DNA of 64,000 nt from Gammaproteobacteria bacterium (GTDB lineage Bacteria; Pseudomonadota; Gammaproteobacteria; Steroidobacterales; XN24), in assembly GCA_024640085.1 (NCBI GenBank), contig JAHEFR010000001.1:186001-250000 (forward strand). Reading direction: 5' to 3'. Made by a program: the position numbers and the translations under genes. A model generated the notes under the pieces. The model did not search any database. It was given only the letters and a program-made list of their open reading frames with translations, and was not told where the DNA came from. Positions 48,855 through 60,049 of this stretch are shown here, one piece after another (position 1 is the first letter of the stretch; each line of letters starts with the position of its first letter).

Positions 48855-50786
48855 ATGGGCAATCGGATCAAGCAGATTCTGGAGAGGATCCGGTACCGGA
48901 TTGACCAGGCTTTCGCCCGGAAGTTCGTCGGGCAGTTCCTGCTGTTCCTGACCCTGGTCACCACTGTCACGCTCATCGGCGTCACGGCCATGTTTTTCGG
49001 CCTGTTCTCCGAAGAGAACAGGCATATCCATTCCATACCGCGGGAGATCGATTCGGGGTTCTGGGACTCGGTATGGTGGTCCCTGAATCAGGTAATGCGG
49101 TTGCAGGGATTCGAGCAGGCTTACGGCGCCACCGGGCCGGTCCTGGCGTACTCCCTGTTCCTGTCCGTGATGGGGCTGATCGTGTTCAGTGTCCTGATCT
49201 CCCTGATCAACAACACCATGCGCGCCCGTATCGAGGCACTGCGCAAGGGCGACACACAGGTGCTGGAGCGCGGCCACGTGCTGGTGCTGGGATGGAGCAA
49301 CAAGGTTTTCTCGGTCCTGCAACAGATCGCGCGTCTGCAGCCGGGGACCAAGGTCGTCATCCTTGCCCCCCGTGAGATAGACGCGATGCAGGAACAACTC
49401 CGGATCGCCGACATCCACCGGGAGCGCATCAAGGTCATCCTGCGCAGCGGGACGCCGAGCAATTACGGCGAGCTGGACCGGGTCGCTGTCAGGTGGGCAG
49501 CCAGCGTCATCGTGCTGGCGACAGACGCCGACGACAGTGAGGCAATCAAGACCATGGTGCTGCTGACGTCCCGCCGGGACTGGCCGGGAAGGCCACCGAC
49601 CCTGGTCTCGGAGATCGCTCTGGAGCAGAACTACGAACTGGCGAAGATAGCCGCCCGCGAGCAGCTGCACATCGTTTCCTCCAGTCTCGTAATCAGCAAG
49701 ATTATCGTGCAGACAGTCCGCAATCCTGGGCTGGCGGACATATACGCGGAGATATTCTCTACTACGGGAAACAGCCTTTACGTGCAGTCCATCCCCGACT
49801 GCACTGACCGCACGATGCGCGAAATCGCGTACGGGCTCACCGATTCCGTGCCGGTGGGCATCACCTGGGACGAGACCCGCGACGGCTCGGTCCGGCACGC
49901 CGCCGGCCTCAACCCGGAGCCCGACTATGATGTCGCCAAGGATGAACGGTTGGTGCTGTTGACCCGACACCTGCCGGCAGCCTATGTGCCTGCCGGCGAG
50001 CTTCCCGAGTCCAGGATCTACCGCGAAGGCGGCGTCGCGCCCCACGTCCCCGGGCGGGTGCTGGTGATCGGCTGGGCGGGCCTGATCTACGATATCCTGC
50101 TGGAGCTGGACGCCCATGCCAGAAGCGGCACCGAGGTCACGATCCTGTCGGGCGTCGATCCGGAAGAAGCACACGAAAGGATGACCAGTCACCACATGGG
50201 GTCATTCAGGAACCTGGCCCTGGTGTTCGTCAAAGGTGACGCGGTCCAGCGGGCGGCCTGGGAAGATATCGAGGTCGGCGGATTCCAGAGCATCGTCGTT
50301 CTGGCGGACGAATCCGTGGACCAGGGGGACAAGGACACCAGGACGCTGCGGATACTGCTGCGGCTGTCGGATCTCCGGAAAGACGCCCAGAGCCGCGCCC
50401 ACACGGTGGTCGAACTGCTGGATGAGAACAACCACGAATTGCTGTCCGATCTCGGCGTGGACGACGTCGTCGTCAGCCCGGAGATTGTCAGCGCCCAGCT
50501 GGCGCAGATCGCCCGCCAGCAAGTGCTCGCGCCGATCTACCGGGAATTGCTGAGCGCCGGCGGTGTCGAGATCAGCCTTCGTCCCGCTGGGGACTATGTC
50601 GAACTCGGGGCTGAGTGCCGCTTCGATGACCTGCTCTACGCCAGTCAGCAGAAGATGGAGATAGCCCTCGGGCTCCGCCTCGCCGAAGCCGGGGGCGTTG
50701 TTCAACTGAATCCTTCACGACAGGCCACGTGGCGGCTGGGGGAGCAGGACAAGGTGATCGTGCTGGCCCAGCAGGTTTACCGCTAG
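48855..50786 (+). CDS. CASTOR/POLLUX-like ion-channel protein with RCK/TrkA-N domains
   Basis: A 643-residue membrane protein. Helices lie at ~26-50 and ~92-116, and between them is a pore-like loop (WWSLNQVMRLQGFEQAYG) with no TVGYG potassium filter. The rest is two tandem RCK/NAD-binding units: LVLGWSNKVFSVLQQI (~143) and VLVIGWAGLIYDILLEL (~393). This layout matches the CASTOR/POLLUX and bacterial relatives, cation channels gated by ligands. Residues 130-630 are cytoplasmic. Confidence 0.88.
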   Translation: MGNRIKQILERIRYRIDQAFARKFVGQFLLFLTLVTTVTLIGVTAMFFGLFSEENRHIHSIPREIDSGFWDSVWWSLNQVMRLQGFEQAYGATGPVLAYSLFLSVMGLIVFSVLISLINNTMRARIEALRKGDTQVLERGHVLVLGWSNKVFSVLQQIARLQPGTKVVILAPREIDAMQEQLRIADIHRERIKVILRSGTPSNYGELDRVAVRWAASVIVLATDADDSEAIKTMVLLTSRRDWPGRPPTLVSEIALEQNYELAKIAAREQLHIVSSSLVISKIIVQTVRNPGLADIYAEIFSTTGNSLYVQSIPDCTDRTMREIAYGLTDSVPVGITWDETRDGSVRHAAGLNPEPDYDVAKDERLVLLTRHLPAAYVPAGELPESRIYREGGVAPHVPGRVLVIGWAGLIYDILLELDAHARSGTEVTILSGVDPEEAHERMTSHHMGSFRNLALVFVKGDAVQRAAWEDIEVGGFQSIVVLADESVDQGDKDTRTLRILLRLSDLRKDAQSRAHTVVELLDENNHELLSDLGVDDVVVSPEIVSAQLAQIARQQVLAPIYRELLSAGGVEISLRPAGDYVELGAECRFDDLLYASQQKMEIALGLRLAEAGGVVQLNPSRQATWRLGEQDKVIVLAQQVYR

Positions 50787-50812
50787 GACGGTTTACGATC
50801 CCGTCCCTGGAC

Positions 50813-50830
50813 GGTCCCGCAGGCGGGACC
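50813..50830. terminator. GC-rich hairpin between convergent genes
   Basis: GGTCCCG (50813-50819) pairs with CGGGACC (50824-50830) around a four-base loop, between the channel gene and the response regulator. No T-run follows on either strand, so it may only slow polymerase. Confidence 0.35.
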
Positions 50831-50861
50831 GCCTCGCGGCAGTCCCCGGTCCGGGTCCTGC

Positions 50862-51230
50862 TCAGGTGCCGCCGAGGAATTTCCCGATCTTCTCCAGCAG
50901 GCGGTTGAGATTGACCGGCTTGGTGTCATAGTCGTCGCAGCCAGCCTCGAGGGCCTTCTGCTCATCGCCAGACATGGCGTGGGCGGTCAGCGCGATCACA
51001 GGAATCTTCTGGGTGGCCGGGTCCGCCTTGATGCGGCGCGTAGCCTCCCAGCCATCGATCACCGGCAGGCTCAGATCCATGAGGATAAGATCCGGCGAGC
51101 TTGAGGACGCCATATCGACGCCTGCCTGCCCGTCGACCGCGATTTTTACGTCGAAACCCTTGCGGGTGAGTCGACGCGAAAGCATATCGCGATTCATCTC
51201 GTTGTCTTCTACCAGCAAAATCTTACTCAT
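50862..51230 (-). CDS. Single-domain response regulator (CheY-like)
   Basis: A 122-residue receiver without an output domain. The phosphoacceptor is D52 (ILMDLSLP), with acidic residues at D9 region (VEDNE) and K104 (DTKPV). It follows the hybrid kinase gene by 12 bases on the same strand, so it is probably its partner in a phosphorelay. It resembles DivK-type regulators. Confidence 0.93.
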   Translation of the reverse strand: MSKILLVEDNEMNRDMLSRRLTRKGFDVKIAVDGQAGVDMASSSSPDLILMDLSLPVIDGWEATRRIKADPATQKIPVIALTAHAMSGDEQKALEAGCDDYDTKPVNLNRLLEKIGKFLGGT

Positions 51231-51242
51231 GAGGCTTCTCGG

Positions 51243-54200
51243 TCACTCTATCGGGTGAATCTTCGCTAACGTCGGTTCGTGCTCGTCGTCGCCGGTATTG
51301 CACGACGCGACTGCATGGCGCACGCGCTCCAGCAAATCTTCCCGGGTGTAGGCCTTTTTCTCCAACACCTCTTCGACGCTGCCCGCCAGTCGGTTGCGGT
51401 CTTCCTCGGTCAAGTCCTTGGCGGTCACGACGATGACCGGAATGTCGTGGCAATCCGGTCGAGCACGCATAGCCGCGAGGAAGTCGAAGCCGTCCATGAC
51501 GGGCATCATCAGGTCCAGAAGGATCAGCCGGGGCTTGGTCGCGTCCAGGACTCCCAGCGCCTCCTGGCCGTCGCCGGCCTCCGATACGGACCAGCCACCC
51601 TTTTCCAGCGTGCGCGCCATGACCTCACGGGTCTCGAAATCGTCTTCGACGAGCAGTACGTTGCAGGATTCGCCGGTACGGTAATAGCGAGACAGCACTT
51701 TGTGCAACTGTTCTCGGTCCACCGGCTTGGTCAGGTAGTCCACGGCGCCGAGCGAATATCCCCGAGTGCGGTCCTCGATCATGCTGAGCATGATCACCGG
51801 GATGTTGCGTAGCCTCGGGTCCGCCTTCAAGGCGCGTAGCACCGCCCAGCCGTCCATCTCCGGCATCATCACATCGAGGGTGATGGCCGCCGGGTGAATC
51901 TCGTGAGCGATCTGCAGCCCTTTCTGCCCGCTGGTCGCCGTGACGACCCTGAATCCGTCCTTTACCAGGTAGCGCTGGATGATCTCGCAGGCCTCGGGGT
52001 CATCGTCGATAACCAGGATCGTGGAGTCGGGCCGGATCTTCCTCAGTTCCTCCAGACCGGCCCGGGAGACTGCCCGGTCCGTCTCTGCTGTCGAGGGCTT
52101 CGTCGCAGACCCCGGCAACTCGGCCGGGATTCGCATGGTGAAGGTGGATCCCTTGGCGAGTTCGCTCTCGAGAGTCAGGTCCCCTCCGAGCAGCTGGCAG
52201 AACCGCCGCGAAATAGTCAGCCCGAGGCCGGTGCCGCCGTAATCGCGTGTGGTCGATCCGTCGGCCTGGGTGAACTCCTCGAACACGGCGTCGATCTTCT
52301 CCGGCGCGATCCCTATGCCGGTGTCGCTGACCGCGAACTGCAGCCAGTCCTCGCGCGACTCCTGGCTGCGATCCACGCGCAGGGTCACCGTGCCCTCATG
52401 GGTGAACTTGGCGGCGTTGGAGAGGAGGTTGAACAGCGTCTGCCGCACCTTCGTCAAGTCCTGGTAGGCATGGCCGAGATCCTCGCCGCGCTCGATCAGC
52501 AGCCTGTTGGCGTTCTTCTCCATCAGCGGGTGAGCGGTGGCGGCGACGTCATCTATCATCGAGTCGATATCGATCTGCTCGGGGAATGCCTCTACCTTGC
52601 CGGACTCGATCTTCGACAGATCGAGGACGTCGTTGATGAGGGTGAGCAGGTGCGCGCCGGCCTGGTTGATCTTCTTCAGATCCGGGACGAAATCCTCCTG
52701 TCCAGTGTCCTCGGCATCCTCGATCAGCATCTCGCTGTAGCCGAGGATCGCGTTCATCGGGGTGCGCAGTTCGTGACTCATATTGGCCAGGAACGCGCTC
52801 TTGGCATGATTGGCGGCATCGGCGTCGTCTCGCGCCTGCCGCAATTCCGCTTCGGCGATTTTTCTGTCGGTAATGTCGCGGAACACGATCACCGCCCCGA
52901 TGAGCGTCCCGTCCTTGCGGAGCGGCGTGCTGGAATACTCCACGTCGAAAGATGAGCCGTCCTTGCGCCACAAGACCTCGTCGTCGATCTTCGAGGTCGT
53001 GCCGTCGGTGAAGGCTGCGTGCATCGGGCACTCTTCCACCGGATAGGGGCGGCCGTCGGCCCGGCTGTGATGGATGAGACCGTGGATGCCCTGGCCGAGC
53101 AGCTCTTCTTTCGCGTAACCGACCAGGACGGCAGCGGCGCGGTTGATGAACATTACCCGGCCCCTTGCGTCGACGCCGAAGATTCCATCGCTGGTGGACT
53201 CGAGCACCAGCCGGTTGCGTTCCTCGGCCTCGGCCATGGCCTCGGCTACTCTATGCCGCTCGGTGATGTCCCGTGCCACACCGAGAATGCCGCCGATGAT
53301 GCCCTCGGAGTCGCGGAACGGCACTTTGGTGGTCTCCAGCAAGTGCTCCGATCCGTCCGGATAGGAGACCCATTCCTCGCGGGTGCGGCGCTCGCCGCCC
53401 TCGGTCACGAGGCGATCCTGCTCGCGGAAGTCATCGCCGATCTCGTCGCCAAACAACTGATGGTCGGTGCGGCCGACGATCCGCTCACGCTCGCGGCCCA
53501 TGAACGCGGCGCATGAGGGGTTGCAGTGCAGGTATCGGCCTTCCAGGTCCTTGACGAAGATCAGGTCCGGGATGGTGTCCAGGATCGAGTCCAGCAGGAT
53601 GCGCTGTTCCGCGAGGACCTGCTCGGCCCGGCGTCTCTCGGTGATGTCGCGGACGACGCTGGATACCAGCATCCCTTCCGATGTCTCGAGGGGACTGAGG
53701 CCCACCTCGATAGGGAACTCGCTGCCGTCGGCCCTGAGGCCACACAGTTCCATGCCGCTGCCCATGTCCCGCCGGCGCGGCTGGCCGAAGAATTTGCGGA
53801 CCTGACCGGCGTGACCGTCGCGGAATCGTTCGGGCACCAGCATATCCACCGACTGGCCAGTCATGGCCTCGGCCGGATAGCCGAACGTCTTCGTGGCCTG
53901 GTCGTTCACCATGACGATCCGCGCGTCCTCGTCGACGATGATCATGGCGTCTGGCGCGGACTCCATCAGGCGGCGGAAACGGGCCTCTCCCGCCCGCGTC
54001 TCCGCCTGCGTCCGCGCGACCAGGCCGGCGACGAACCACATAGCGAGCGCGATCAGTGCCAGCGTGCCGAGCATGGTGCCAGCGAGCCACCAGGCCTGGC
54101 GGCGAGCGTCGGCCAGGACCTGGTCCTCGGGGAGGAAAATGGCGAACGACCAACCGGCGGACGGGAGCGGCGCGAAGTAGGCAAGCTGGGGCCCGTCCGC

Positions 54201-55016
54201 CGCGTCCTTGAGACGGGCCATCCCGCTACCGCCATCGATCATCTGTCTGGCCAGGGCAACGGCGCCGGGTCTGTCGGCCGCCTGCTCGAAAACCGTGGCA
54301 TTGCCCTCGGGGATGCCTTGAGTCCGATGGATGTAGCGGCCTTCGGGGGTCAGGATGGCTACGTTCAGGTCTGTGCCGATGAATTCCTGCAGGGGGGCGA
54401 GAGGGATGTCGATGGTGGTCACGCCCCGCAGGCGGCTATCCCTGAAAAACGGCACGCTGTAGGTGGACATCATGATGTTGCCGGCGCCCTCGTCGAAGTA
54501 CGGTTCACTCCAGACGGGACGGCCGGACGTCGCCGGGTCATGCCACCAGCGGATATCAGGGTCGTTCAGGTAATCGTAGGTGCTGGCAATATCGAGTCGC
54601 TGCAGCCCGGTTCCGCTGACGCCGTCGCGATATACATATGGGCAGAAAGCGCTGTGCTCGTCGAAACCACCGGCAACGAATCCCATGGCGGCGCCATAGA
54701 TGAGGGGATCCTGGCGCACGCCGTTCTCGAGCAATCCGTAGATTTCATCTTCTGTCAGGTTGTCCAGCAGGGACACGGCCTTCGCAGTTTGCTCGGCTAC
54801 CTGGGCGACCCGGTGCAGTTCACCGTCGAAACGTTGGGAGAGGGTAACTACCGTGTTGGCCATCTCCCGTTCGCTGTTGGCGATGGCGCGTTCGGAACTG
54901 GCAAAAAGGTTGATGCCCAGGATCACCAACAATATTGCCGTGATGGGCGCGAGGGTCACCGTCAAGAGCTTGCCGCGGGTCATGGCGCGACGAGGTCTGT
55001 CTGTCCCCGCGCTCAC
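51243..55016 (-). CDS. Hybrid sensor histidine kinase (dCACHE-PAS3-HK-REC2)
   Basis: A 1257-residue membrane sensor. Order: TM1 (~17-37), a periplasmic double-CACHE-like sensor (~40-305), TM2 (~310-335), three PAS domains (~345-460, ~470-595, ~605-725), HisKA with H748 in MSHELRTPMN, HATPase (NLLSNAAKF, DTGIGIAP, GGTGLGLTI), then two receiver domains (TLDVMMPEMDGW and LLDLMMPVMDGF). There is no C-terminal Hpt, so phosphate must leave by another protein. A small signal is likely sensed in the periplasm, and PAS domains may add a redox or ligand input. A stand-alone receiver follows. Confidence 0.95.
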   Translation of the reverse strand: MSAGTDRPRRAMTRGKLLTVTLAPITAILLVILGINLFASSERAIANSEREMANTVVTLSQRFDGELHRVAQVAEQTAKAVSLLDNLTEDEIYGLLENGVRQDPLIYGAAMGFVAGGFDEHSAFCPYVYRDGVSGTGLQRLDIASTYDYLNDPDIRWWHDPATSGRPVWSEPYFDEGAGNIMMSTYSVPFFRDSRLRGVTTIDIPLAPLQEFIGTDLNVAILTPEGRYIHRTQGIPEGNATVFEQAADRPGAVALARQMIDGGSGMARLKDAADGPQLAYFAPLPSAGWSFAIFLPEDQVLADARRQAWWLAGTMLGTLALIALAMWFVAGLVARTQAETRAGEARFRRLMESAPDAMIIVDEDARIVMVNDQATKTFGYPAEAMTGQSVDMLVPERFRDGHAGQVRKFFGQPRRRDMGSGMELCGLRADGSEFPIEVGLSPLETSEGMLVSSVVRDITERRRAEQVLAEQRILLDSILDTIPDLIFVKDLEGRYLHCNPSCAAFMGRERERIVGRTDHQLFGDEIGDDFREQDRLVTEGGERRTREEWVSYPDGSEHLLETTKVPFRDSEGIIGGILGVARDITERHRVAEAMAEAEERNRLVLESTSDGIFGVDARGRVMFINRAAAVLVGYAKEELLGQGIHGLIHHSRADGRPYPVEECPMHAAFTDGTTSKIDDEVLWRKDGSSFDVEYSSTPLRKDGTLIGAVIVFRDITDRKIAEAELRQARDDADAANHAKSAFLANMSHELRTPMNAILGYSEMLIEDAEDTGQEDFVPDLKKINQAGAHLLTLINDVLDLSKIESGKVEAFPEQIDIDSMIDDVAATAHPLMEKNANRLLIERGEDLGHAYQDLTKVRQTLFNLLSNAAKFTHEGTVTLRVDRSQESREDWLQFAVSDTGIGIAPEKIDAVFEEFTQADGSTTRDYGGTGLGLTISRRFCQLLGGDLTLESELAKGSTFTMRIPAELPGSATKPSTAETDRAVSRAGLEELRKIRPDSTILVIDDDPEACEIIQRYLVKDGFRVVTATSGQKGLQIAHEIHPAAITLDVMMPEMDGWAVLRALKADPRLRNIPVIMLSMIEDRTRGYSLGAVDYLTKPVDREQLHKVLSRYYRTGESCNVLLVEDDFETREVMARTLEKGGWSVSEAGDGQEALGVLDATKPRLILLDLMMPVMDGFDFLAAMRARPDCHDIPVIVVTAKDLTEEDRNRLAGSVEEVLEKKAYTREDLLERVRHAVASCNTGDDEHEPTLAKIHPIE

Positions 55017-55466
55017 GCCGGATCGGCCCTGCTGCAGAAACTCCGCGGGGGATGCCCCGGGCGTCGTGCCGAGCTGTCAGGCGGACGCCCGCAAATGATC
55101 AGTAGCCCGGTGAGTTTCATTGCTAGCCTGCCTGTCAGAGAGTGAGAGTCCGAGAGGTCGCGTGGCAGACAGGTCCGGTGAACCGCTGCCGCGTCCTGCG
55201 TGAGTCAATTATCCCCAATCCGTCCGCGTTTGTCCGCGCGGGTATCGGGGACAGGTACTCGAGGCGAAAGCACATCAGTTTTTGTCTCCGGGACTGCCCC
55301 GTTTGGCGTCCGTTCCGGCGGAGGGCTCGAGATCACCCGGTTGATGTGGCAGAAGCGCGATCTGACAAGAGACAGATCTTCAGCATATCGGGAGCCTTGC
55401 GGAACAGACGGTTGTCGCGCCGTCGGGCCTCCCTGGGTGCGATCGGCTGAATATAAAAGTATTCAA

Positions 55467-55512
55467 TCTATACAATTAGATATCGGTAATATTTAATCTA
55501 ATTTCTATACAA
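55467..55512. repeat. AT-rich symmetric element with direct and inverted repeats
   Basis: Two copies of TCTATACAA (55467-55475 and 55504-55512) flank a perfect 8-base inverted repeat, AATTAGAT (55474-55481) and ATCTAATT (55496-55503), separated by 14 bases. The sequence is far more AT-rich than its surroundings. It could be an operator or UP-type element upstream of ffs; there is no direct evidence. Confidence 0.6.
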
Positions 55513-55597
55513 AGGACTTTCCCGCCCGAGCTGAAAGTCGGGCAGGGGGTCCGACGGCGACGCTGGGGTAGCGGTCCACGGAATGCGCCAGGCTTTC

Positions 55598-55606
55598 TGA
55601 TAAAAT
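55598..55606 (+). promoter_or_regulatory. Candidate extended -10 promoter of ffs
   Basis: TGATAAAAT (TG-n-TAAAAT) lies 66 bases before the mature SRP RNA, which would give a short 5' precursor. No -35 match is seen. Confidence 0.4.
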
Positions 55607-55671
55607 CTCTCGGCCGCGCCGAGGGCGTCCGCCGAACTGTCGGACCCCTCGATGTGCACAGATCGATCGAT

Positions 55672-55783
55672 GGTGGTCCGTGCCGGTCCTCCCGCGACGG
55701 TTAACCGTGAACCCCGTCAGGCCCGGAAGGGAGCAGCGGTAGCGGGGACGCCGGGTGCCGGGATCAGGCTGGTACGGGCCGCC
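55672..55783 (+). ncRNA. ffs: 4.5S RNA, small signal recognition particle RNA
   Basis: A 112-base RNA with all SRP RNA hallmarks. The ends pair as GGTGGTCCGT (55672-55681) with ACGGGCCGCC (55774-55783). The apical region holds the conserved GTCAGGCCCGGAAGGGAGCA (GGAA tetraloop) and the asymmetric loop GCCGGGTGCCGGGAT, matching the Ffh-binding site of E. coli 4.5S. It lies 91 bases before dnaX. It works with the Ffh protein encoded at 6.6 kb. Confidence 0.95.
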
Positions 55784-55874
55784 CCCATCCATGCCTTGCG
55801 AGACCGGCAAGGGCCCGTTGGCCGGCCGCCTCGATTTGATACACTCCGGGGCTCGAATTACCGGTGGAGTTCAG

Positions 55875-57509
55875 ATGAGCTATCAGGCCCTGGCGCGTAC
55901 GTGGCGGCCCCGCACTTTTGCCGAACTGGTGGGGCAGGAGCACGTTGTCAAGGCCCTGGTCAACGCGTTGGACGACGAGCGTCTCCACCACGCTTACCTG
56001 TTCACCGGTACGCGCGGCGTTGGCAAGACCACCATCGCCAGGATCCTGGCCAAATGCCTGAACTGTGAGAAGGGTGTGACCTCGACGCCCTGCGGTGAGT
56101 GCAGTGCCTGCACCGAGATCGATTCGGGCCGCTTCGTGGATCTGCTTGAAGTGGACGCCGCCTCGCGAACCAAGGTGGACGACACAAGAGAGCTGCTGGA
56201 GAACGTGCAGTACACGCCGACCCGGGGACGCTACAAGGTGTACCTCATCGACGAAGTGCACATGCTCTCCAACCATTCCTTCAACGCCTTGCTGAAGACC
56301 CTCGAGGAGCCACCGCCCCACGTCAAGTTCCTCCTCGCTACCACGGATCCGCAGAAACTGCCGGTAACGGTCCTGTCACGATGCTTGCAGTTCAATCTCA
56401 AACGGCTGCCGCACTCCATGATCTGCGATCGCCTGGAGAAAGTGACGGGATCCGAGTCCATCGATGCCGACACGGGCGCCCTGGATCAGCTCGCCACCGC
56501 GGCGGACGGCAGCATGAGGGATGCCTTGAGCCTGCTCGACCAGGCCGCCGCGTACTGCCATGGCAGCCTGACTGAAAAAGACGTCCGGGCCATGCTGGGC
56601 ACCATCGACCAGGACGCAGCAGTCAGGATTCTCAGGGGCATCGCCGCGGCGGACGCGTCCGAGTTGCTTGCGACGGTGGCCGAGCTGGACGAGATGGTGC
56701 CCGACTACGGCGCCGCGATAGACGAGCTTGCATTACTGATCCAGCGGACGGCATTGGCCCAGGTGGCGGAATCCGTCCTGGAAGAGCTGGGGTCGGTGGC
56801 CGACGCGGTGAGTGAATTCGCTGCCGCCATGTCTCCCGAGGATCTGCAGCTGTATTACCAGATTGCCCTGATCGGCAAACGCGATCTTCATCTGGCGCCG
56901 TCGGCGCGGGCGGGTTTCGAGATGATCCTGCTGCGCATGCTGGCGTTCCGGCCGGCGGAGGCCGACGGCGGCGCCGTGACCGCGACGCCGGCAGTGGCGG
57001 CCCGTACGGCAGGCGAGAAACGGCGAATGGCGCCAGCGAGGACCGTATCGTCTGCCACGCCCCGGTCCGATGTCGCCGGGACCCGGGGATCTCAGGCCGG
57101 CAAGTCGGGCGCAGTCGGGATCGAGGGGCTGGAGTCCTGGGAACAGGCCATCGATGGCCTCAGATTGTCGGGCGCCGTACGGCAACTGGCCAGTCACTGC
57201 CAGGTCAAGAGCGTGGACGAAGGCGTCGTCACCCTCGTGCTGGATGAGGCGGCGTCTCATCTGCAGACGGGTACCCTGCAAGAGAAATTTCGCCAGGCTT
57301 TGTGCGACGGGCTGGGGCGGGACGTGCGAATCCGTATCGAGCTTGGCCAGCCGGGTGCCGAGACGCCGGCGCAGAAGCTGAACCGGCAGGAAGCAGAGCG
57401 CCAACAGGCGGCGGAGCAATCTATCGACCGCGATCCCAACGTGCTGGCGATACAGAAGGCATTCGATGCGACGGTGGATCCGTCGTCTATCAAACCCGCG
57501 AGTCATTGA
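55875..57509 (+). CDS. dnaX: DNA polymerase III subunit gamma/tau
   Basis: The clamp-loader ATPase. The 544-residue product has [11 protein letters not shown] (Walker A, ~residue 44), a zinc module (CLNC...CGECSAC), Walker [10 protein letters not shown], the sensor region [18 protein letters not shown], and a C-terminal domain ending near KPASH. It is shorter than E. coli tau (643 residues) and I see no A-rich slippery site, so a separate gamma form by frameshifting is not indicated. The start at 55875 gives [12 protein letters not shown]. Confidence 0.96.
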
Positions 57510-57534
57510 TTCGGAATTGATCTGGAGGGAAGCG

Positions 57535-57858
57535 ATGAAAGGTGGTCTGGGACAGCTGATGAGACAGGCCCAGCAAATGCAGGCCGATATGCAGAAGGCT
57601 CAGGCGGAACTGGGTAACCTCGAGGTCACCGGCAGCGCAGGTGGGGGCATGGTGTCTGTGACCATGAGTTGCAAACACGAAGTGCGCAAGGTCTCCATCG
57701 ACAGCGCCATGATCGGGGAGGATCGGGAGATGCTGGAGGACTTGATCGCCGCCGCCACCAACGATGCGTTGCGCAAAGTCGAGCAGACGGTCCAGGAGAA
57801 GTTTTCCGGGCTCAGCTCCGGCATTTCGTTGCCCCCCGGGATGAAGCTGCCCTTCTGA
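57535..57858 (+). CDS. ebfC: Nucleoid-associated protein YbaB/EbfC
   Basis: A 107-residue DNA-binding homodimer with the family pattern [18 protein letters not shown] (N-terminal helix), [16 protein letters not shown] and [18 protein letters not shown] good GGAGGG lies just before the ATG at 57535. It sits between dnaX and recR, the standard order dnaX-ebfC-recR. Confidence 0.96.
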
Positions 57859-57862
57859 TCTT

Positions 57863-58468
57863 ATGAACTATTCCCCCCTGGTCTCGCGCCTGATCGAGGC
57901 CCTGCGATGCCTGCCGGGCGTCGGTCCAAAATCGGCGCAACGCCTCGCGTTCCACATCCTCGAGCGGGATCGGGAAGGGGGCAGGGCGCTGGCCGCGGCC
58001 ATCGCCGAGGCGGCCGCGGCGGTCGGCCACTGCCGACGCTGCCGCATGCTCACCGAGGTCGAGCTCTGCCCGATCTGCCGCTCTACCGGCCGCGACGAGT
58101 CGTTGCTGTGCATCGTCGAGACCCCGGCCGATGTGGTGGCCGTGGAGAACTCGGCGGGCTACTCCGGGCGCTATTTCGTCTTGACCGGCCACTTGTCCCC
58201 CCTGGACGGCATCGGGCCGGAGGAGCTTGGGCTGGACCTGTTGGAAAAGATCCTGGACGAGGAGTCGGTAAAGGAAGTGATCGTCGCCACCAATCCGACT
58301 GTTGAGGGCGAGGCGACGGCTCACTATATTGCCGAAATCTGCGCCGCCCGTACCATCCGTGCGACGCGCATCGCCCACGGGGTGCCCCTGGGCGGCGAAC
58401 TCGAATATGTGGATGGAGGCACCCTCTCTCGCGCCCTTTCGGGTCGGCAGTTGATCGATCACGGCTAG
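57863..58468 (+). CDS. recR: Recombination protein RecR
   Basis: A 201-residue RecFOR-pathway protein. It has a helix-hairpin-helix at ~10-35 ([18 protein letters not shown]), a four-cysteine zinc finger ([17 protein letters not shown]) and a Toprim domain with [15 protein letters not shown] and [15 protein letters not shown]. It starts four bases after ebfC. It converges on rsgA with three bases between. Confidence 0.97.
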
Positions 58469-58471
58469 GAG

Positions 58472-59398
58472 CTAGATACCGGGCGCGAGGTTCTCCATCA
58501 GCCGTACCAATCGGCGATAACTCTCGTATCGCCGCGCCGGCACCGCTCCGGAAGTTACGGAGTCCTTGACAGCGCAGCCCGGCTCCTTCATGTGGAGGCA
58601 GTTGGAGAAGCGGCACTGTCCTGCCAGATCAGCGATCTCCCGGAAGCCCATGGCGACGTCCCTGACAGGCACCGGGGGCGGGGCGTAGTCGCGCACGCCG
58701 GGTGAGTCGATCAGTTCGCCGCCGGTCGGCAGCAGATGGAGGACCGATGCGGTGGTGGTGTGACGACCCTCGCCGGTAGCCTCTGAGAGTGTGGCCGTGC
58801 GAATCTCGGCATCTGGCAGCAGCGCATTGATTATCGATGACTTGCCTACGCCGGAGTGTCCCACCAGGATGCTGGTGTGACCGGCGAGTTGCCGACCGAG
58901 TGCCTCCAGCCCCGATGACTCGCGGGCGCTGACCCGCAGCACCGGATAGCCGATGGAGGAGAACTCGGACAGGTCGAGGGCGGCGCCGTCCGGGTCCAGA
59001 TCTGTCTTGTTGTAGGCCAGGCACGCCCGGGCGCCCATCAATTCCGCGGCGGCCAGGTAGCGGTCGATCAGGAAGGCGTCCGGCGGCGGCGTGGGAGCGG
59101 AGACGACGATCACCTGGGTCAGGTTAGCAGCGAGCACCTCCCGGTCGCCTTTCCGGCTGGGCCGGGCCAACTCCGTGGTCCGCGGATCGATATCCGTCAC
59201 CAGTCCGTCGCTGTCGTCCTGTGGGCGGCGCCAGATGACGTGGTCCCCGCAGACAGGCCGCAGGCGGCGGCCGGACAGGATGCAGGGGTGCCGTCGACCG
59301 TCCTCGTCCTCCACCAGGACGTGCCGGCCGAATGCAGCCACGACCCGGCCGGGCTCGGTGCTGGCATGGGATTCGCCGTCTCGGGACGAGACCGTCAC
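58472..59398 (-). CDS. rsgA: Ribosome small-subunit GTPase RsgA
   Basis: A circularly permuted GTPase that matures the 30S subunit. The 308-residue product has an N-terminal OB fold (~15-95), then G4 YNKTD before G1 [12 protein letters not shown] and G3 DSPGVRDY, the permuted order, and a C-terminal zinc knuckle [14 protein letters not shown]. The start is taken as GTG at 59398, which gives a normal N-terminal length; the open frame beyond is antisense to orn. It is divergent from orn, as in E. coli. Confidence 0.94.
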
Positions 59399-59460
59399 CC
59401 GGCAGATCCCGCGGACAGGTGTCCATCCTGCCGCACAAGACAACCTGTCGTCGAACGCTT

Positions 59461-59469
59461 TGCTAGAAT
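59461..59469 (+). promoter_or_regulatory. Candidate orn promoter, extended -10
   Basis: TGCTAGAAT is a TG-extended -10 that lies 32 bases before the orn start in the rsgA/orn divergent spacer. The -35 is not clear. Confidence 0.4.
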
Positions 59470-59500
59470 CTTGGCGCCCTCGTCGCGATGGAAGCCCAAC

Positions 59501-60049
59501 ATGCCAACAGACCCGGAAAACCTGATCTGGATCGATCTCGAGATGACCGGGCTGGACCCCGGATCGGACAGAATCATCGAGATTGCCACCGTGGTGACAG
59601 ACAAGCAACTGACGGTGCTGGGAGAGGGACCGGTCCTGGCGGTGCATCAGGACGACGAGACGCTGGAGGCGATGGACGACTGGAACACCCGCCAGCACAA
59701 CGGCTCCGGCCTGGTGGAGCGGGTGCGTCAGAGCCAGGTGGACGAGGCCGAGGCCCAGGCGCGTACGCTGGCCTTCCTGGCCGCTTTCCTCGATCCGGGT
59801 CAATCGCCCATGTGCGGCAACAGCATCTGTCAGGACAGACGATTCCTGGCCAGGTGGATGCCGGAACTCGAGCGGTTTTTCCATTACCGGAACCTGGACG
59901 TCAGCACCCTCAAGGAGCTGGCGAGCCGTTGGCATCCCGACGTGGCCAGGGGATTTTCCAAGGAGTCGTCCCATCTGGCGCTGAGCGACATCCACGACTC
60001 GATCGAGGAACTTCGCTACTATCGCCGCTCGCTCTTCCGGCTGCCATGA
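59501..60049 (+). CDS. orn: Oligoribonuclease
   Basis: A DEDDh exoribonuclease that degrades 2-5 base RNA fragments, essential in many gammaproteobacteria. The 182-residue product shows [10 protein letters not shown] (first acidic pair), the middle [13 protein letters not shown], and the C-terminal [18 protein letters not shown] with the catalytic His and Asp. The start at 59501 gives [17 protein letters not shown]. It overlaps the next gene's ATG by four bases. Confidence 0.97.

Follow-up and report, generated by a model that had tools for sequence, protein, structure and literature searches.

What does an AT-rich island do upstream of ffs, the gene for 4.5S RNA (the bacterial small SRP RNA), in a GC-rich genome? 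We addressed this in a window of 64 kb, the whole stretch of DNA that was analysed, where the island occupies positions 55448-55515 (no strand assigned) and is proposed here as an upstream regulatory element of ffs. It holds the lowest-GC 60-mer of the entire window, with a GC of 0.167 compared with 0.64 for the window itself. This AT-richness is far from chance and is a strong signal.

The symmetry of the island is a weaker one. The repeats described in the first-pass annotation are present, and their coordinates were reproduced: two plus-strand copies of the direct repeat TCTATACAA at 55467-55475 and 55504-55512, 37 bp apart from start to start, and an inverted repeat AATTAGAT...ATCTAATT over 55474-55503 (no strand assigned), with arms at 55474-55481 and 55496-55503 and 14 bp between them. 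That the direct repeats enclose the inverted repeat holds for their order and is slightly loose in detail, because the first AATTAGAT arm shares two bases with the first TCTATACAA. We also read a second inverted repeat from the sequence, TGAATA/TATTCA at 55448-55465 (no strand assigned), which forms a hairpin in the predicted fold. When the 66-bp island was shuffled 20000 times with its dinucleotides preserved, 8-bp inverted repeats with a loop of at most 20 arose in 9.3% of cases and 9-bp direct repeats in 5.3%, with the two together in 0.84%; the symmetry, which was chosen after the fact, is therefore only mildly unusual for this composition. Two copies of TCTATACAA in the window compare with 0.05 expected, and genome-wide the word occurs in 7 places versus 5 for the reversed word, the remaining five copies being single and on five different other contigs. 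We therefore rejected TCTATACAA as a dispersed motif on this control. The candidate TGAATATAAAAGTATTCA was likewise rejected as an ARG-box, since its spacer is 8 and not the 4 of the consensus.

The ffs gene itself lies at 55681-55777 on the plus strand (RF00169, 70.8 bits, E 1.5e-14), and the Rfam search gave no other RNA family within 50000-60000. It begins 169 bp past the second TCTATACAA, in line with the distance of about 160 bases originally noted. Upstream of it we infer a probable -10 region, TTTCTGATAAAATC (55594-55607, plus strand), all 14 bases of which are identical in the other genome of the genus; a consensus promoter scan called no promoter at this position. Transcription of ffs would then start near 55613, and the island would span roughly -165 to -98. 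The upstream neighbour in the window is a divergent PAS histidine kinase gene (51243-55016, minus strand). For comparison, PMC7967276 describes a single strong promoter and an extended 5' stem-loop for ffs of Escherichia coli. In the window, a GC-rich hairpin seemingly lies between the probable -10 and mature 4.5S RNA (55608-55680), and a GC-rich hairpin, with a different sequence in each case, likewise seems to precede ffs in several family members (L022, L023, L028 and L032). A literature search found no paper on nucleoid-protein input to 4.5S RNA or on IHF at ffs.

We compared seven genomes of the family: this one (G000), one of the same genus (G001), and five from three other genera. G001 carries an AT island in the corresponding position before ffs (GC 0.15), and the upstream neighbour of ffs there is a different, co-directional gene, which we read from its sequence as a probable LmbE-type deacetylase. 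The two islands align with a score of 36, compared with a mean of 18.9 and a maximum of 34 in 500 shuffles. In this alignment ACAATTAGATA stands opposite ACAATAAGTTA, and the aligned stretch extends beyond the AT part into a TTTCCC common to both genomes, apart from which little is conserved between the island and the ffs -10. Neither TCTATACAA nor AATTAGAT is found in the G001 island or elsewhere in the G001 genome. In the five genomes from other genera of the family, the DNA before ffs lacks such an island (minimum GC 0.48-0.55). A BLAST search of 59 genomes with the 181-bp stretch returned, besides itself, only short matches (best E 0.007) and missed the G001 counterpart. Outside the genus, a few of the ffs loci, 57 having been scanned, had a minimum GC of at most 0.30 (among them L099 with 0.20, L103 with 0.28, and AT-rich genomes such as L050), and these low-GC stretches bore no likeness by eye. 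The AT-rich element before ffs is real and is common to both genomes of the genus.

This island has company. Islands with a 60-mer GC of at most 0.25 number 8 in 850 kb of both genomes, about one per 100 kb, and of eight islands compared between the genomes, seven have a counterpart. One, which lies before a PolB-type exonuclease gene beside pdxJ, is present in both (L180, L181). A protein search with 15 island-side genes gave a match in the other genome for eight; an epimerase gene was left out because it lies at a contig edge, and seven genes were traced through eight fetched regions. Five of these regions have an island (60-mer GC 0.18-0.25), and the genes concerned are a probable dnaN, named from its sequence, and genes for a DsbA-like (frnE-like) protein, a phasin, an HxlR regulator and a methyltransferase. 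The three regions with no island all concern a single island (C44 294357): two are oligopeptide-transporter regions (0.38 and 0.48), of which one comes from the same genome and may be a paralogue, and the third is a glycosyltransferase region that contains an assembly gap. For seven island pairs the local alignment score was reached by at most 1.6% of shuffles. The Pfam names of the island-neighbour genes suggested no obvious common function. For a comparison with rRNA genes, no 16S was found in G000 and a partial one in G001; the 6 kb around the latter, which include 100 N, contained no AT island at the cut-off applied. In G001 we also observed two AT islands about 215 kb apart (L170, 2941-3000; L172, 2953-3080) whose flanks resemble each other in opposite orientation, which hints at a repeated element; the copy in L172 adjoins an assembly gap.

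The islands share a motif. The word AACAATA occurs in 10 of 19 islands versus 1.0 expected (z 9.5), compared with a highest 7-mer z that, over 400 shuffled sets, had its 95% point at 7.5 and peaked at 10.1. De novo motif finding by EM in 24 islands returned AAAAACAATAANTTAT, with a log-likelihood of 105 versus 50-58 in six shuffled sets; its shape is an A-tract followed by W-CAA-N4-TTR. Seven of the 24 came from a listing of 16 islands, 12 from islands among those listed elsewhere, and five from the cross-genome regions; the nine islands of the 16 that stayed outside the set were mostly short, but included one of 90 bp in G001. L172, whose flank repeats that of L170, was left out. The set contains orthologous pairs, and its rows are therefore not independent. 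The W-CAA-N4-TTR core is present in 12 of the 24 islands versus 2.5 expected (z 6.5), in a spacing test run on the same islands that yielded the motif, and in none of ten islands outside the set. Core spacings of 1-3 and 5-8 occurred in 0 to 3 islands, about as often as chance predicts or less, and spacings of 0 (8 versus 3.0 expected) and 9 (5 versus 2.2 expected) were also raised. At consensus position 3 the islands favour A over the T of E. coli. The signal was weak when T was required, 11 of 24 islands matching at up to one mismatch (6.8 expected) and one exactly (0.5 expected), and strong when A or T was allowed, with nine exact matches versus 0.8 expected.

Across the order, AAAACAATAASTTATA at up to two mismatches outnumbered its reversed control by 226 to 60 in 51 of 59 genomes, being commoner in 38 of these, rarer in four and equal in nine; in the eight genomes with control counts of at least 10 it was not enriched (141 to 148). 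The 51 are the GC-richer genomes, and the words commoner in 38 of them include some upstream of psp-like and fis-like genes. Judging by the sequence of the neighbours, we take one such site (L264) to lie in the interval that separates a pspA-like from a pspF-like gene, immediately upstream of a sigma-54-like promoter, and another (L277) to lie upstream of a fis-like gene.

Part of the explanation that we favour is that AT islands of roughly 50-145 bp form a class in the genus, and that about half of the examined set carry an IHF-type motif. In the window, the best match to a model trained with the window left out is TATACAATTAGATA (55469-55482, plus strand), a degenerate IHF-type motif aligned with AAACAATAAGTTATA of G001. 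Its score of 9.4, from a training set that included the G001 ffs island, is modest, being reached by 2.55% of shuffles, and under a model that included it, it ranks sixth in 330 kb of its own contig. The strict IHF consensus WATCAANNNNTTR has no match in the window island, where the best candidate has two mismatches, as in nearly all shuffles, and the G001 island has an exact WAWCAANNNNTTR (W-A-W-CAA-N4-TTR) site. TATACAATTAGATA is probably a degenerate site, a prediction placed mainly through its alignment with G001. In both genomes there are genes for IHF alpha and IHF beta that score above the NCBIfam cut-offs (in G000, 161 bits for alpha with a cut-off of 120 and 147 bits for beta with a cut-off of 115; G001 likewise), together with HU-like proteins. 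We also found in both genomes a fourth, divergent HU/IHF-fold protein (L289, L290, 1501-1788; PF00216, 58 bits), which no NCBIfam model names at E <= 1e-5, and which is a candidate alternative reader of the islands.

IHF bends DNA sharply. Most likely the island is a place where a common chromosome-organising protein such as IHF docks and bends the DNA, and we put at about even the chance that it is an IHF-type architectural regulatory site upstream of the ffs promoter and one of the island class of the genus. IHF, or a like DNA-bending nucleoid protein, would dock on the island, perhaps at the degenerate copy, some 100-165 bp upstream of the presumed ffs start. The bend could carry upstream DNA to RNA polymerase and might set the geometry of the promoter, or might insulate it from the divergent kinase gene; either way it could tune the output of 4.5S RNA. 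The earlier suggestion of a specific protein-binding site fits in this respect, because the island keeps its position in G001 and shares a motif with other islands, although the repeats on which it was based are those missing from the G001 island.

Like IHF sites upstream of promoters, the island has AT-rich surroundings in an organism that encodes the IHF subunits, and the island motif has the CAA-N4-TTR core and spacing of the consensus WATCAAnnnnTTR (WATCAANNNNTTR), which PMC10380432 describes as dependent on surrounding A/T; it differs in the preference for A over T at position 3 and in a window copy that is degenerate and a predicted site only. In Table 2 of the review PMC6907758, the IHF consensus is printed in the H-NS row, and the H-NS and IHF motifs are apparently swapped. 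The island also resembles other AT-rich regulatory DNA. Upstream activating regions of the Fis/UP type are AT-rich and serve stable-RNA promoters, and the island is AT-rich DNA upstream of a stable-RNA gene, but at about 100-165 bp before the presumed start it would be too far for an UP element beside the -35. Silencer regions of the H-NS type are AT-rich too, as are these islands in a GC-rich genome; however, the islands stand before housekeeping genes, keep their position in both genomes and have a sequence motif in common.

How else could the island be read? It might be an upstream ffs site for another protein (Fis, HU, the divergent HU/IHF-fold protein or another regulator), with the IHF-like motif of the other islands irrelevant here. 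The place is conserved though the window has no strict IHF match, and HU-like proteins and one divergent PF00216 protein are at hand in both genomes, but the aligned island of G001 has the exact W-A-W-CAA-N4-TTR site, and we consider this explanation possible and rather doubtful. The island could also have no function, as AT drift or a remnant of an old insertion, and the repeats missing from G001, a symmetry near chance for the composition and the five family members lacking an island would all suit such an origin. This is improbable given that the two genomes of the genus share the position of the island before ffs although their upstream genes differ, that the island alignment exceeds composition, and that islands so deep are rare (8 in 850 kb, or about one per 100 kb).

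It is hardly probable that a separate small transcript starts from the island, or that ffs has a second promoter there, with a -10 TATACA at 55506-55511 and a GC-rich hairpin downstream at 55521-55546. TATACA and TATATT stand opposite each other in the two genomes, and a fold more stable than those of shuffles (z -2.91) is predicted for the longer stretch 55440-55680, of which the ffs leader is part. Nevertheless, a -35 in register is absent, no plus-strand promoter or terminator was called, conservation from the island to the ffs -10 is slight outside TTTCCC, there is no Rfam match, and the stretch 55515-55600 (z -0.31) and its G001 counterpart (z -0.19) fold like shuffles. The small transcribed hairpin that had been suggested fares no better: the AT palindrome is about as stable as its shuffles (z -1.15), and with RF00169 the sole family in 50000-60000 a small RNA is not supported, z -2.91 for the longer stretch being the one contrary value. 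Nor is a terminator supported, in agreement with the first reading, since no intrinsic one (a GC-rich hairpin followed by a T run) was called on the plus strand in 55000-55900 and the sole terminator-like site there is on the minus strand (55623-55609).

In conclusion, the IHF-type site that we favour is ordinary in kind, and its mild interest comes from the gene it would serve and from the class of islands to which it belongs. A wider network, which we regard as unlikely though conceivable, would consist of islands that hold their position in front of unrelated genes of this genus (4.5S RNA, dnaN, DsbA-like, exonuclease and phasin). It would be an architectural network, IHF-type or private, with a lineage-specific AACAA variant of the IHF core, and would tie SRP RNA output to the state of the chromosome. 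If it holds, the favoured reading also suggests that candidate IHF-type sites in GC-rich gammaproteobacterial genomes may be listed simply through their rare AT islands, whose position is kept better than their exact sequence. If the proposed role is true, 4.5S RNA, which is essential to protein targeting, would gain an input from a nucleoid protein.
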